A stretch of DNA of 64,000 nt from Clostridia bacterium (GTDB lineage Bacteria > Bacillota_A > Clostridia > Oscillospirales > CAG-272), in contig JAFTUD010000015.1 of NCBI GenBank assembly GCA_017466455.1, forward strand, positions 1 to 64,000, given 5' to 3'. This document shows, piece after piece, positions 54,202-59,374 of this stretch (its first letter is position 1; each line of letters begins with the position of its first letter). Below the pieces are notes generated by a model. That model was not told the DNA's origin. It worked only from the letters and a program-made list of their open reading frames with translations, and ran no database searches. A program made the translations under genes and the position numbers.

Positions 54202-56241
54202 ATGAAAAAATATCTTTTAACCTTAGTGCTTACAATATTGTGTGTGTTCGTGTTCGCAATCTCGGCAAGCGCGCAAACATATACAGTATCAAGCAACGAC
54301 GAGTATGAGCAGGCGTATCAAAACGCAGTAAGCGGAGATACAATCATAGTTGACTCAAAGCTTACCTGCGACATCTACGCAAACAAAAGCATAACCTATG
54401 TCCTGAAGGCAGACTGGGAAAGCTCTAAGCTCGTTGTAAATCAAGCAAATGTAGAGGTGTCCTTTATCGCCGATGGCGGTGACTACAGGATTATGCCCAC
54501 TAATTATTCTACAACCGATGGTTGGCTGAATCTTACCACAGTATATGAAAATGTAGTTATCAATTTGGGCGGAATGAATGGCGGAACACTTACAATTGAC
54601 GGTTCAAACGCAACTCATGACAGAGTTACATATGTTACCGCAGCATATATAACCTTAAATTTGCTAAGTGGCTCTGCTATTGCTAATTTCAATACTACAG
54701 AAAATGACAGTAGCCAACAAGCGTGTATAATCTATGCAGAAACCGTCAATATGTACGACGGAAGCAAAATTTACGGAAACAGAGTAAGCGGCGCTCCGCT
54801 TATCAAGTCAATTGATTTTAACCTCTACGGTGGCGAAATCTTTGGTAATTTGCTTACAAGCACAAGGATAGAGCTAAGCGGTGTAGGCTTTATATTTGCA
54901 TATACTCAATTCACAATGTATGGTGGCAGGATATATGACAATATCTTTAATGCAACAAACGGACCAAGTGGTACTAATGTTGTAGGATTTATTTCTGTTA
55001 GCTATGGCTATTTGAAGGGAAAGATGGTTGTATATGATGGCGAGTTGGGTGATAACTATGTAAGCGGAAACGGGAGTTACGAAGTAAGCGCTATGTTTGG
55101 CATCAATAATAGCAGTAATGCCGAAAGCCATTTCTACTATAACACAGCTGTAAAGGGAACAAGATATAAATTTACAGATACACCAACTCTTGAGCTTGAC
55201 AGCGAAACAGGAAAAACCTTGTGGAAGGTAAAGAATTACACTCTTTTGTCAGAAGACTGGAATGGCTGGTGCTGGAGGCAAACGAAGGTGTCGGGCGACA
55301 AAGTGGCGATATTCCTTAAAGCGCAAAAAAAGACTATTGCCGGAAATAATTTCAACCAACATACAGTTATCAACGCATATATTGACGGTGTTTATGTGCA
55401 CTCTGGCTCAAATAAAACTATCGCAATCCCAAGTGGCTATGATAAGTGGTCAACAGATGGCAACAAGTTCTGCCATACAGGAAGAGCATACACTCTTGAT
55501 GAGGTAAAGGCGGCTCAAGTGATTACACTCTATTCCGCATATGATGCCGAAAGAGTAACAATAGACGGAATAACAATGTGCGCAGGCTGTAAGACAAGAT
55601 ATACATGTAATGACCCTACACACGATTTAGAGGTTGTGTCAATTTCCTATACTAACTTTTCCGAAAACGGTGTAAAGGTGCTAAAATGTAATACCTGTGG
55701 CTTGGAAAAGGCAACAGAGGTAATCGCCGAACCAATATTCACCTGCCTCGGCTATTCAACAAATGATGACAATAGCGGAATTGCAACAGGCTTTAGCATA
55801 AATCACGATAATCTATCGGAGTATGAAAGAATCAGCGGTAAAAAGATTACCTTCGGCGTTGTAGTATTCAATCCAAAATACCTTAACTCCGATACAGTAT
55901 TCACCGCAGACGGAAAAATCAACGCGGCAAAGGGCGCGCTTCAGGTAGAGCTTGACCTCGCATACGCGCACTGTAAGCTCTGCGTTTCGGGAATGAGCCT
56001 TGATAATGAGGAGCATACCGCACTCGAGCTTGTTTTCGCAGGCTACGCCTACGAGGGAGAGGATAAGGCAAATATCCAAGTCTTCCAAAAGGAATACCTC
56101 GGCACACAGGAAGCCCCCGCCCACTCACCAATGGCAAGTAAGGTAACAAGAGGAAATAATGTCCTCTATACAATCAAGCTCCAAACAGTTCTAACCCCAA
56201 CCCAAATCACAACAGGCAAGGAAGACCTGTTAGAATTCTAA
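54202..56241 (+). CDS. Secreted beta-helix-like protein with shared C-terminal domain (secreted protein 2)
   Basis: Exported protein of 679 residues. A signal peptide covers residues 1-24 (cut after Ala-Ser-Ala). Residues about 70-330 show repeated short strands (LYGGEIFGN, MYGGRIYDN, VYDGELGDN), the pattern of a right-handed parallel beta-helix as in pectate lyase-like or adhesin folds. Cysteine pairs CAGC and CNTC follow near 455-495. The last 170 residues are the shared C-terminal domain. From about residue 515 the DNA, including the terminator, is nearly identical to that of secreted protein 3. No catalytic residues can be named. It is co-transcribed with the FAD oxidoreductase. Confidence 0.8.
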   Translation: MKKYLLTLVLTILCVFVFAISASAQTYTVSSNDEYEQAYQNAVSGDTIIVDSKLTCDIYANKSITYVLKADWESSKLVVNQANVEVSFIADGGDYRIMPTNYSTTDGWLNLTTVYENVVINLGGMNGGTLTIDGSNATHDRVTYVTAAYITLNLLSGSAIANFNTTENDSSQQACIIYAETVNMYDGSKIYGNRVSGAPLIKSIDFNLYGGEIFGNLLTSTRIELSGVGFIFAYTQFTMYGGRIYDNIFNATNGPSGTNVVGFISVSYGYLKGKMVVYDGELGDNYVSGNGSYEVSAMFGINNSSNAESHFYYNTAVKGTRYKFTDTPTLELDSETGKTLWKVKNYTLLSEDWNGWCWRQTKVSGDKVAIFLKAQKKTIAGNNFNQHTVINAYIDGVYVHSGSNKTIAIPSGYDKWSTDGNKFCHTGRAYTLDEVKAAQVITLYSAYDAERVTIDGITMCAGCKTRYTCNDPTHDLEVVSISYTNFSENGVKVLKCNTCGLEKATEVIAEPIFTCLGYSTNDDNSGIATGFSINHDNLSEYERISGKKITFGVVVFNPKYLNSDTVFTADGKINAAKGALQVELDLAYAHCKLCVSGMSLDNEEHTALELVFAGYAYEGEDKANIQVFQKEYLGTQEAPAHSPMASKVTRGNNVLYTIKLQTVLTPTQITTGKEDLLEF

Positions 56242-56340
56242 TAAATAAAAGGGCACTCAAAAGAGTGCCCTTTCTTTGCAAAAGCAAGCGAGAAGAACGC
56301 AGAGCCTTTTTCTTGCAATCCGTGAAGCTCAAAACTTATA
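55745..56340 (+). repeat. Long direct repeat, copy 1 (C-terminal domain, terminator, flank)
   Basis: This segment is repeated at 63283-63878 with no gap through the coding part (constant offset 7538). It covers the C-terminal domain of secreted protein 2, the terminator and about 70 bp beyond. Identity rises toward the 3' end. The copy breaks off near 56336, and its expected continuation, a gene remnant, reappears at 59385. Confidence 0.85.
56248..56273 (+). terminator. Terminator of secreted protein 2
   Basis: AAAGGGCACTC and GAGTGCCCTTT flank an AAAA loop; the same element follows secreted protein 3. Confidence 0.92.
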
Positions 56341-56369: not shown

Positions 56370-56400
56370 TTGACATTGACCTAGGGTTATAGTGTATGAT
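56370..56400 (+). promoter_or_regulatory. MerR-type promoter with 19-bp spacer
   Basis: TTGACA (56370-56375) and TATGAT (56395-56400) are separated by 19 bp instead of 17. The spacer contains the dyad-like ACCTAGGGT. Overlong spacers of 19-20 bp with a central dyad are the mark of promoters that MerR proteins activate by DNA distortion. The gene it serves encodes a MerR domain. Confidence 0.75.
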
Positions 56401-56448
56401 AAAATTAAAATATAAAAGCACTGACTTTAATAAATGCGAGGTGTTGAA

Positions 56449-58170
56449 ATGAAGATAAATGATGTAGAAAAAATAACAGGCTTGACAGCTAAGGCAATCC
56501 GTTTATATGAAAGCAAGGGACTAATTAATGTTTCAAGAGAGGAAAACGGCTATCGTAATTATAGTGAAAATGATGTTGAAATATTAAAGAAAATAAAGCT
56601 TTTTAGAAGGATTGGTATAGCTATATCCGACATTAAGCTATACTTGTTTGGTGTTGTTAGCTTAGAGGAGCTAATAGAAAAAAGAAAGGCTGAAATCATA
56701 AAGGAAAGTGGCAAAAACTCTGAAATATATGGCATTTGCGAAAGCATTTTTGCAAAGAACTCACTTGAATTCCTTGAAAATAATGAAAGCTTTACCGAAA
56801 ATGAAAAAGCAAGAAGCAGTGGTTATGGCACACCAAGTGTGGGTATTGACATCGGCACAACAACTATAAGTGCCCTTGTGTACGATATTGATAACAAGGT
56901 GCAAATAGAAGCATATACCCTGCCACATAGCTCTTACACTCAAAGGGGAACATTTTCAGAGCAGGATGTGTCGGTAATTATAGAAAAAGCCAAAAAGCTT
57001 TTGTACCACATTCTTTCAATCTATGACAATATAGTAAGCATTGGCATAACAGGTCAAATGCACGGAATTGTGTATATAGATAAAAATGGACAGGCTGTAT
57101 CTAACCTTATAAATTGGCAGGATAAGCGCGCGGACCAAATAATAAAGGACGAAAAAACCACCTGTGACTTGATTTACGATATAACAAAAGAGCATATTTC
57201 AACAGGCTATGGCATAGCGACACATTATTACAATATGCTAAATGGGCTTGTGCCAAAGGGTGCGTGCGGTATTTGCACAATAATGGATTTGTTTGCTATG
57301 GAAATATGTGGCAATAAAAAGGTTATAACTCACACATCCTTAGGTAGTAGTCTTGGAATGCTTGATGTGAAAAACGGTAGCTTTAAATATGATAAGTTAG
57401 CCCTACTTGGAATAGAGAAGGAGCTTTTGCCACAGGTAAGTGATAAGAGCCTAATTATAGGTAAGTGCAGGGGTATACCGGTAGCTATTCCAATAGGAGA
57501 TAACCAAGCAAGCTTTTTAGGCTCGGTTAGTAAAAATGAGGACAGTATGCTTATAAATATAGGCACAGGGTCCCAAATTTCCTATGCAACCAACGAATAT
57601 CAAGAGATAGATAGGGAGCTGGAATTGCGTCCACTCATTGAGGGTAAATACATGGTTTGTGGCTCCGCCCTTTGTGGTGGCTTTGCGTATTCAATGGTTG
57701 AGGAATTTTTCAGAAGCTACATGGTAAGCGCAGGAGCACAGGAAAAATCTCAATATAGCATAATAAATCAGTTAGCTAAAGAGGCATATGAAAATGGAGA
57801 AGAGGGACTTTTAGTGGACGCCTTTTTCTGCGGAAAGCGTAGCGACCCTAACCTAAGAGGCTCTATTAAAAACATAGATAGAAACAGCTTTACTCCGCAA
57901 GCCCTTGTTTTAGGAGTGCTTAAGGGAATGTGTAATGAGCTATATGAGCTTTATGAAAAGGTCCCTTGTAAAAAGTCGCACATAGTTGCATCCGGTGGAG
58001 CTATTAAGAGAACAGAAATTTTAAAGGACATAATAGCTAAGCGCTTTGGAGCAACTGTTTCAGCTAATAGCGTTGATGAGGAGGCATCAACAGGTGCTGC
58101 CCTTTTCTCGGCATTAGCAGCAGGAAAAATTAAGTATAATAATGGCTTTTCGGAGTATGTAGGAGGGTAA
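56449..58170 (+). CDS. MerR DNA-binding domain fused to FGGY-family sugar kinase
   Basis: Cytoplasmic protein of 573 residues. Residues 1-70 are a MerR winged HTH (ITGLTAKAIRLYESKGLI, then GYRNYSENDVE). A helical linker (about 75-125) replaces the MerR dimerisation arm. Residues about 130-560 are a complete FGGY kinase: GIDIGTTT phosphate loop, GITGQMHG, NWQDKR, catalytic-base region GDNQASF, NIGTGSQIS and the nucleotide motif ASGGAIKR. The kinase part most resembles sedoheptulokinase-like members. The kinase motifs look intact, so it may both phosphorylate and sense its sugar. I chose the ATG at 56449 (GAGGTG site). It is one base from the GH32-like gene, in one operon. Confidence 0.9.
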   Translation: MKINDVEKITGLTAKAIRLYESKGLINVSREENGYRNYSENDVEILKKIKLFRRIGIAISDIKLYLFGVVSLEELIEKRKAEIIKESGKNSEIYGICESIFAKNSLEFLENNESFTENEKARSSGYGTPSVGIDIGTTTISALVYDIDNKVQIEAYTLPHSSYTQRGTFSEQDVSVIIEKAKKLLYHILSIYDNIVSIGITGQMHGIVYIDKNGQAVSNLINWQDKRADQIIKDEKTTCDLIYDITKEHISTGYGIATHYYNMLNGLVPKGACGICTIMDLFAMEICGNKKVITHTSLGSSLGMLDVKNGSFKYDKLALLGIEKELLPQVSDKSLIIGKCRGIPVAIPIGDNQASFLGSVSKNEDSMLINIGTGSQISYATNEYQEIDRELELRPLIEGKYMVCGSALCGGFAYSMVEEFFRSYMVSAGAQEKSQYSIINQLAKEAYENGEEGLLVDAFFCGKRSDPNLRGSIKNIDRNSFTPQALVLGVLKGMCNELYELYEKVPCKKSHIVASGGAIKRTEILKDIIAKRFGATVSANSVDEEASTGAALFSALAAGKIKYNNGFSEYVGG

Positions 58171-58171
58171 T

Positions 58172-59374
58172 ATGAAGGACTTTAAAATAGCATTTGAAAT
58201 TGCGAAAAATCCAATTTATGCCGTGTCAGTTAAAAATGGAAGAAAAGCTCTTGAAATACAAGCCCTTGAAGGCACTCTTACCATATCGGCACAGTATGAT
58301 TTCAACGAGCGTCCTCTTGAATTGAGCTGCGAAATAAATGAAGGGGACAAAATAGAGGCTGTATTCCTTGATTACAGAATAGAGCTATATGTAAACGGCA
58401 CAATAATGGATGAGGAGTGGCCCTGTGGCACAAGGCTTTTTGAAATTAGTGATACATTTGTAGGTAGCATAGATATACAAGTAACCGAATATAAAGCAAA
58501 AGAAAAGGAAGAGCCAAGTATAATAGGCACCTTTGAAAATGCGCAGGGCTGGCGTCCCGGAAACGGAGTGTTTGTAGGAGATTGTATGCCATATGTAAAA
58601 AATGGCGAATATCATGTTTTGTATTTAAAGGACAGGCACCACCATAAAAGCAAATGGGGAATGGGCGCACACCAATGGGAGCATATCTCCACCACCGACT
58701 TCAAAAAATGGAGCATACATCCTATGGCTGTCCCTATTACCAAAAAGGAAGAATGCTCTATATGTACAGGCTCTTGGATAAGAAAAGGAAACGAGGAGCA
58801 TTTATACTACACAATAAGGCGTAGTGGCTTGCCTGCAATAATCGCAAGGAGCATATCCTATGATGGCTATCATTTTAAAAAGGATGAGACCTTTGGCTTT
58901 ACCCTTTCTGAAAAATACAACGGACCCGTTACAAGAGACCCTAAGGTAATAATGGGCGAGGACGGATTATATCATATGTTTTTGACAACCGTGCTTGTCA
59001 AAGAAAATAAGGGCTGTCTTGCTCACTGCATATCACAGGATTTAGAAAAATGGGAAGAGGCAAAAAATCCCATATATGTGGTTGAAAATAGCGATCATCC
59101 CGAGTGCCCCGATTACTTCAAATATAACGGAAAATACTACCTCGTTTTTAGTATTCGTGGACGCGCACGCTACCTCGTGTCAAATAATCCCTTTGATGGC
59201 TTTGTGTCCGTAACTGATGAGCTAATCCCTTGCGCAGGCGTGCCAAAATGCGCCGAGTGGAACGGAAAGCTTGTATTTACAGGCTTTGAACCAATAGATG
59301 GCTATGCAGGTATAATGACCTTTAAATGCGCCACCGCCAAGGGAAACGGAGAGCTTATATTTGAGGACCTTTAA
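58172..59374 (+). CDS. GH32-like glycoside hydrolase with N-terminal beta-sandwich
   Basis: Protein of 400 residues, no signal peptide. Residues 1-115 form a beta-sandwich (IELYVNGTIMDEEWPCG), before rather than after the catalytic part as in classic GH32. Residues 120-400 are a five-bladed propeller with GH32 marks: GDCMPYVKNGEYHVLY with the probable nucleophile Asp, WEHISTTDFKKW, TRDPKVI (the RDP stabiliser) and ECPDYF (acid/base Glu). The standard NDPNG start is altered to GDCMP. It would cleave fructosides or a related sugar. It is coupled to the MerR-kinase gene, whose sugar may be its product (inference). Confidence 0.78.
   Translation: MKDFKIAFEIAKNPIYAVSVKNGRKALEIQALEGTLTISAQYDFNERPLELSCEINEGDKIEAVFLDYRIELYVNGTIMDEEWPCGTRLFEISDTFVGSIDIQVTEYKAKEKEEPSIIGTFENAQGWRPGNGVFVGDCMPYVKNGEYHVLYLKDRHHHKSKWGMGAHQWEHISTTDFKKWSIHPMAVPITKKEECSICTGSWIRKGNEEHLYYTIRRSGLPAIIARSISYDGYHFKKDETFGFTLSEKYNGPVTRDPKVIMGEDGLYHMFLTTVLVKENKGCLAHCISQDLEKWEEAKNPIYVVENSDHPECPDYFKYNGKYYLVFSIRGRARYLVSNNPFDGFVSVTDELIPCAGVPKCAEWNGKLVFTGFEPIDGYAGIMTFKCATAKGNGELIFEDL

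Follow-up and report, generated by a model that had tools for sequence, protein, structure and literature searches.

A MerR DNA-binding domain joined to an FGGY sugar kinase in gut Clostridia: a candidate trigger enzyme with a MerR-type promoter

The stretch of Clostridia DNA analysed here (64 kb, hereafter the window) contains at 56449..58170 a gene for a 573-aa protein in which a MerR DNA-binding domain is joined to a whole FGGY sugar kinase. This MerR-FGGY fusion is real and conserved. Both of its parts look intact, and they are coupled by sequence to a promoter element of the MerR type. The protein is probably a trigger enzyme, in other words a competent FGGY ketose kinase that would also serve as the MerR regulator of its own operon, by substrate-gated self-induction. 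The features of the window located below between 56250 and 59374 lie on the + strand.

The fusion gene and its relatives

The 573-aa open frame matched three Pfam families, all passing that database's cut-offs: MerR_1 (E 3e-16), a winged helix-turn-helix at residues 1-66 (56449..56646), FGGY_N (E 3e-25; residues 131-355, 56839..57513) and FGGY_C (E 2e-7; residues 368-558, 57550..58122), the last two in the order expected of an FGGY carbohydrate kinase. An earlier note on this DNA had read a complete MerR helix-turn-helix and an apparently intact FGGY kinase in a single chain, outside the ROK superfamily. Both points are borne out: the domains share one frame, and a Pfam scan of the fusion protein (E up to 0.001) returned no ROK family. 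The two-domain architecture, which the note had proposed to search for in protein databases, was present in all of the 120 best of 3596 database matches: these carry the MerR and FGGY_N Pfam domains, at 59-93% identity. The FGGY_C call is missing in 8 of the 120, and some of them are named 'MerR family transcriptional regulator'. One match, P0057, is a 654-aa fusion with a partial PfkB domain at its C-terminus, probably from a chimeric metagenome contig. The conserved start of the fusion is at 56449 (MKIND...); an alternative in-frame ATG at 56434 sits just 5' of the apparent ribosome-binding site.

AlphaFold2 predicted the whole fusion chain with a mean pLDDT of 90.4 and a pTM of 0.89, and with a pLDDT of 60-78 across residues 101-130. 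At the place where the MerR dimerisation helix would be, the secondary structure of both AlphaFold2 models (single chains) has two helices, residues 72-86 and 92-103 (56662..56757). They are followed by a tether, residues 104-128 (56758..56832), which is poorly conserved and delimited by conservation and pLDDT; when five segments were compared for conservation, residues 113-128 ranked lowest, the most frequent residue having a mean frequency of 0.52. Because the coiled-coil helix of MerR proteins is short and broken in these models, classical coiled-coil dimerisation of the fusion is not assured.

Twenty-two loci from GTDB genomes were compared for fusion architecture. The full fusion is present in one frame in 16 of them, and three (L016, L017, L019) have the kinase without MerR. 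In L018 (7992-9718), MerR and kinase occupy two overlapping frames behind a kept promoter element, due either to a natural split or to an assembly frameshift. The last two loci have only the MerR part in common; these are Lachnospiraceae MerR proteins (L021:7923-9335, L022:7995-9332) with a similar helix-turn-helix and a long, apparently membrane-spanning C-terminal part, and their genes have a similar promoter element with 3 mismatches. The assemblies that carry the fusion are titled Clostridia or Oscillospiraceae, and the same gene recurs in separate assemblies whose source, where named, is the gut of roe deer, water deer, sheep or goat. In the order, 245 genomes were sampled (E up to 1e-40), yielding five intact fusions plus an apparently decayed copy in G110, where the match covers residues 1-270 with an internal stop. 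One fusion was found in a sample of 398 genomes of the phylum (E up to 1e-50). The fusion is therefore narrow in range.

Thirteen genomes of the order sample are kinase-only, one with a close kinase (G109, 56% identity) and twelve with distant ones (34-42%). Among the twelve, the kinase of G251 is cut by a contig end, its N-terminus lying beyond it; in the kinase-only genomes other than G251, no MerR-like sequence was found before the kinase. Kinase-only orthologues are found inside the fusion clade, at L016:7959-9338, L017:7956-9365, L019:5531-6940 and in L028 (genomes G016, G017, G019 and G109). Since such relatives without MerR exist, the fusion is dispensable. A PFL-like gene (glycyl radical enzyme type) adjoins or lies near the distant kinase-only relatives L031, L032, L034, L035 and L037, assigned by Pfam in L031 and by sequence cluster in the four others.

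The kinase motifs are retained in the kinase-only relatives as well as in the fusions. Residues G136, T137, T138, G202, Q203, M204, W223, D225, G350, D351, N352, T373, G374 and Q376, which belong to the GT, GQM, W.D, GDN and TG.Q motifs, are invariant in 137/137 aligned fusions, a set which includes near-identical copies. It contains 118 of the 120 matches, P0020 (433 aa) and P0057 (654 aa) having been removed by a length filter. GDNQAS is present in 120/120 of the best-listed matches, and its Asp351 (57499..57501) is the predicted catalytic base, the roles given to it and to the other motifs being those general in FGGY kinases. Such invariance makes a degenerate kinase unlikely. In five pairs, dN/dS (Nei-Gojobori) ranged over 0.06-0.17 in MerR, 0.05-0.41 in the linker and 0.08-0.12 in the kinase, and 27/70 MerR columns are conserved at 95% or more. 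Judged from these sequences, both the MerR and the kinase parts are under purifying selection, and the kinase is presumably catalytically competent.

The promoter element and its further sites

The gene upstream of the fusion (54202-56241) is followed at 56250..56277 by an inverted repeat and a T-rich stretch, probably its intrinsic terminator, read by eye as AGGGCACTC-aaaa-GAGTGCCCT then TTCTTT. Further downstream, at 56370-56400, lies the promoter TTGACA-TTGACCTAGGGTTATAGTG-TATGAT, whose 3' end is 48 bp before the gene. It is made of a -35 element (TTGACA, 56370..56375), a 19-bp spacer with an imperfect dyad (56376..56394), the putative operator of the MerR domain, and a -10 element (TATGAT, 56395..56400). 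Two papers describe a spacer of 19 or 20 bp that contains a palindrome as a hallmark of MerR promoters (PMC1526738; PMC9909328).

The 19-bp arrangement was found in 19/19 upstream regions (the window and 18 loci), with the top score in 18 of them; in L018 it ranks second, outscored by 16- and 17-bp readings. The 18 distinct elements have in common a CC-N3-GG core with a T/A pair further out, both arranged about a single centre. The imperfection of the dyad is reflected in its complementarity, which at the best centre reaches 68% for six positions on each side, a value given with no chance control. In the 64 kb of the window, the 31-bp element occurs once at up to 3 mismatches, with no second element, against an average of 0.01 in shuffled sequences.

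Allowing up to 2 mismatches, the 31-bp pattern had 25 sites in 17/20 genomes, and a reversed control pattern had 0. Seventeen of these sites are the fusion kinase's own promoter, so that 17/17 MerR-bearing genomes have one, a count that is partly by construction since the pattern was derived from these promoters. At the same threshold, the element was found nowhere in the whole genomes of the three (3/3) that have the kinase without MerR. The order sample contained it 32 times in 23 of its 245 genomes (control: 2), namely in 5/5 intact fusion genomes and in 18 others. There it was absent from G110 and from all 13 kinase-only genomes (one close, twelve distant, among them G251 with its N-terminus off the contig). 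The 0/3 and 0/13 counts are not by construction, and concern small groups of related genomes. In particular, the pattern has no match in G016, G017, G019 or G109, the genomes with kinase-only orthologues inside the fusion clade.

We inspected 22 of the 24 sites located in non-fusion genomes. Twelve precede other MerR-type genes (9 recognized by motif search, 3 by eye), which argues that the element is of the MerR class; the other 10 have no MerR-type gene after them. As far as sequence can establish it, the promoter of the fusion has MerR-type architecture and is coupled in occurrence to the MerR domain, giving independent support to the role of regulator that the earlier note had proposed for the protein. 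Since element and MerR domain co-occur, we infer that the 19-bp-spacer element is the target of the fusion protein. A survey of kinase-only promoters comprised 16 rows, 10 of which (L028, L029, L031, L033-L035, L037, L038, L040, L041) were uninformative, the gene being on the minus strand of the stored locus. Among the kinases without MerR, L016 shows a 17-bp-spacer promoter with 2 mismatches, and no clear promoter was seen in the upstream regions of L017 and L019.

Eight of the 25 sites in the 20 genomes lie away from the fusion promoter. In L001, L002, L003 and L018, the element precedes the gene located 3' of the GH32-like gene described below, an LRR gene. Pfam assigns this gene to LRR_5 in L001 and L002; the copies of L003, which is in pieces, and of L018 were recognized by sequence cluster. 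L004 has the same LRR arrangement with a weaker site, detected by a local scan. Read by eye from its N-terminus, the LRR protein looks secreted. Further sites precede a GH38-like gene in L003 and GH4 genes in G011 (L096:5127-5157) and G001 (L095:496-526, GH4 being judged from an identical-looking start), and one, in G005, is at a contig end (L094:4268-4298). The G001, G005 and G011 sites are near-identical and have a variant with TTTACC; another regulator might act on them. A search for this variant element returned these three variant sites and 13 already-found ones (12 own promoters and the LRR site of G003). We propose that in some relatives the regulon of the fusion may comprise the LRR gene and glycoside hydrolase genes.

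The GH32-like partner gene and its neighbourhood

One bp past the kinase stop begins, in the same direction, a gene for a 400-aa GH32-like glycosidase (58172..59374; Pfam GH32N, E 2e-19), in line with the GH32-like gene that the earlier note took to be co-transcribed. Its triad Asp137, Asp256 and Glu311 (nucleophile Asp, RDP Asp and EC Glu, the roles usual in GH32) is invariant in 152/152 aligned relatives. Each of the 20 genomes (20/20) has exactly one GH32-like gene (E up to 1e-15), placed directly behind the kinase in 18; the two exceptions are G016, where it is ~7 kb away on the same contig, and G019, where it is on another contig. The distant kinase-only relatives in G035, G204, G214 and G251 adjoin a GH32-like gene too. 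The pair formed by the kinase and the GH32-like gene may thus predate the fusion, and this adjacency in several kinase-only relatives speaks for the kinase part being an enzyme independently of any MerR domain.

The association is looser in the order sample, where 19 genomes have a GH32-like gene, 19 have a kinase match and 8 have both, 11/19 of the GH32-like genomes being without a kinase match at E 1e-40. Moreover, G172, one of the five intact fusion genomes, has no GH32-like partner, its best matches being at E 1e-7 and weaker; its fusion (L056:5241-7046) has the N19 promoter and is followed by a gene for a 1904-aa protein whose start is signal-like. On account of these genomes, the kinase and the GH32-like enzyme do not make up a constant pathway. 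G172 detracts from the case for the partner gene but not from the promoter coupling, which G172 shows too. The GH32-like enzyme may supply the sugar of the kinase, as the earlier note had suggested. GH4 together with the GH32-like enzyme would suggest a raffinose- or fructan-type sugar, and GH38 a mannoside; no FGGY fructokinase is known to us.

The nearest plasmid relatives of the GH32-like gene are a Kosakonia plasmid GH32 gene (26% identity, 66% of length) and GH32 genes of E. coli plasmids such as pHP62_scFOS, a short-chain fructooligosaccharide plasmid (25% over 66%). In the fos locus of pHP62_scFOS, as here, a glycosidase is encoded together with a sugar kinase, but the kinase there carries the annotation aminoimidazole riboside kinase, and the regulator is of the LacI type. 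Other neighbours of the fusion vary: the LRR gene recurs in several loci, and GH38, GH2, UxuA, GH4, PFL-like and other genes are found once or in few loci. Between 51923 and 63779, the window contains AraC regulators, FAD oxidoreductase, and heparinase-like and LRR proteins, and resembles carbohydrate-use islands. In L042 and L045, from genomes without a close kinase, the GH32-like gene adjoins a gene for a protein of 533 aa that contains sigma-70 regions (seen in a Pfam scan of L042).

A candidate trigger enzyme, its precedents and the ancestry of its kinase

MerR regulators are described as distorting promoter DNA with 19-20 bp spacers (PMC9909328 and PMC1526738, in passages of each), and a sugar-driven closure of the two FGGY kinase domains is noted in a passage of a family study (PMC3245297). 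Such a closure could drive the promoter switch. In the proposed mechanism, the MerR domain would dimerise and bind the promoter with the 19-bp spacer that serves its own operon (kinase and GH32-like glycosidase), and in some relatives the same dimer would also bind the promoters of the LRR and glycoside hydrolase genes. Without sugar, the over-long promoter would be held inactive. The signal would come from closure of the kinase domain on its sugar, or from its turnover of sugar and ATP; it would be relayed through the short linker of helices, and the MerR dimer would then distort the spacer so that RNA polymerase can use the promoter. The GH32-like enzyme, where present, would free the sugar that the kinase both consumes and senses, and kinase and glycosidase would rise as long as substrate lasts. 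We infer, in this scheme, dimerisation, catalysis, sugar identity, activation by distortion and the direction of the switch. The narrower proposal, an active kinase acting as ligand sensor, its closure or turnover leading to DNA distortion at its own promoter, and a small regulon of glycoside hydrolases and the LRR protein, has in our opinion slightly better than even chances.

The MerR part could also answer to a signal other than the kinase's sugar (ATP/ADP, the sugar phosphate product or a partner protein), perhaps with repression as the outcome. The effector is not fixed by sequence, MerR proteins both repress and activate according to a passage of PMC9909328, metabolites can control FGGY kinases, as with E. 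coli glycerol kinase and fructose bisphosphate (from the title of a database entry), and the fusion of G172 has no GH32-like partner. Nevertheless, the usual glycosidase partner and the presence of the element before glycoside hydrolase genes suggest a sugar signal, and we consider this alternative unlikely.

Alternatively, the kinase domain might be a sensor only, binding sugar and ATP to control DNA binding, its useful catalysis lost. ROK regulators offer a precedent, many ROK repressors being without useful catalysis, and the 2-9 FGGY_N matches per genome (20 genomes, fusion counted) mean that other kinases could do the metabolic work. Yet the residues of all five kinase motifs are invariant in the aligned fusions, kinase-only relatives retain these motifs and several of them the partner gene, and the dN/dS of the kinase is about 0.1, all of which makes a loss of catalysis distinctly unlikely. 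That the MerR domain is a passive relic, or a mere DNA tether for the enzyme, agrees with its absence from several relatives of the same clade (L016, L017, L019, L028), but is very improbable given its low dN/dS, its conserved columns and the lack of the N19 element where the kinase has no MerR. Finally, an assembly or frame error joining two genes, feared in the earlier note and not excludable from the window alone, is ruled out for practical purposes by the 120/120 best matches with MerR and FGGY_N and by the agreement of many separate assemblies.

The trigger enzyme with substrate-gated self-induction, which we prefer, can be compared with several known systems. Like the MerR regulators CueR, CadR and BmrR, the fusion has an N-terminal winged helix-turn-helix, and the element before its own operon has a 19-bp spacer and a dyad; unlike them, its effector part is a whole FGGY kinase, and in the model its dimerisation helix is broken and short. 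A review of the MerR family deals with metal, redox and multidrug groups, its main text containing no words beginning with kinase or sugar (PMC9909328). Enzymes that gained a DNA-binding domain are a known kind, according to passages of two papers (PMC8249747; PMC6978683), and an E. coli list of trigger enzymes in the first of these includes BirA, NadR, PepA, PutA and PyrH, and no sugar kinase. The fusion resembles PutA, BirA and NadR, DNA-binding trigger enzymes, in combining a metabolic enzyme with a DNA-binding part that would regulate the pathway of this enzyme, whereas the DNA-binding parts and the enzymes themselves are different. In the ROK regulators (NagC, Mlc, XylR), a helix-turn-helix is likewise joined to a sugar-kinase fold, but ROK is a different kinase family, and promoter distortion is not known to be their mode of action.

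No description of the MerR-FGGY architecture was found in the open-access PubMed Central papers searched, nor anything there on FGGY with sedoheptulokinase, or on fos; the words fusion, fused, MerR and transcription are absent from the main text of the 2011 FGGY family study (PMC3245297). The proposal of the earlier note, an independent invention of a kinase-sensor regulator, is supported in part: of the two outcomes that the note had named as refuting, neither occurred, the fusion being no assembly error and no described family having turned up in these searches. DNA-binding enzymes are already known as a general kind. If our reading is true, this would be, to our knowledge, the first MerR regulator with a whole kinase as sensor, and a further route, beside ROK and the PutA/BirA-type enzymes, from metabolic enzyme to transcription factor, in which a single polypeptide would sense a ketose, consume it and induce its use. 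With FGGY closure and MerR distortion joined in one chain, the passage from substrate binding to promoter opening would be directly testable, and the natural relatives, some having and some lacking MerR or the N19 promoter, already provide a set for comparison.

The ancestry of the kinase part was examined on a tree of 69 rows, including seven E. coli FGGY kinases and 27 paralogue rows from the same genomes. The latter come from 30 paralogue loci, of which two gave no usable frame and one, L077 (a fusion), was left out, as was L039, which a contig end truncates. The kinases of the fusions group with the kinase-only relatives in one set (98/94), apart from the E. coli FGGY kinases and from 25/27 paralogues; the remaining two rows (L063, L068) are on branches over 5, their frames having probably been wrongly taken. 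Within this set, the fusions and five close kinase-only rows make one clade (99/100), with several switches of the MerR label inside it; on the tree, five changes of the fusion label are required when L018 is counted as kinase-only. The tree is compatible with one gain of MerR and several losses, or with more than one gain.

When a kinase-only protein was used as query, 9 of the 120 matches listed were MerR fusions, with 45-49% identity to the query. The kinase part itself has 41% identity over 441 columns with P0334 (471 aa), which resembles it in this part and has no MerR Pfam domain. P0334 bears the JGI name sedoheptulokinase, an annotation and not a test, and the best reading of the sequences is that the kinase belongs to a sedoheptulokinase-like branch. 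Residues 1-62 of P0334 align with the MerR part at 29% identity over 62 columns (E 0.009 in a single comparison), perhaps by chance.
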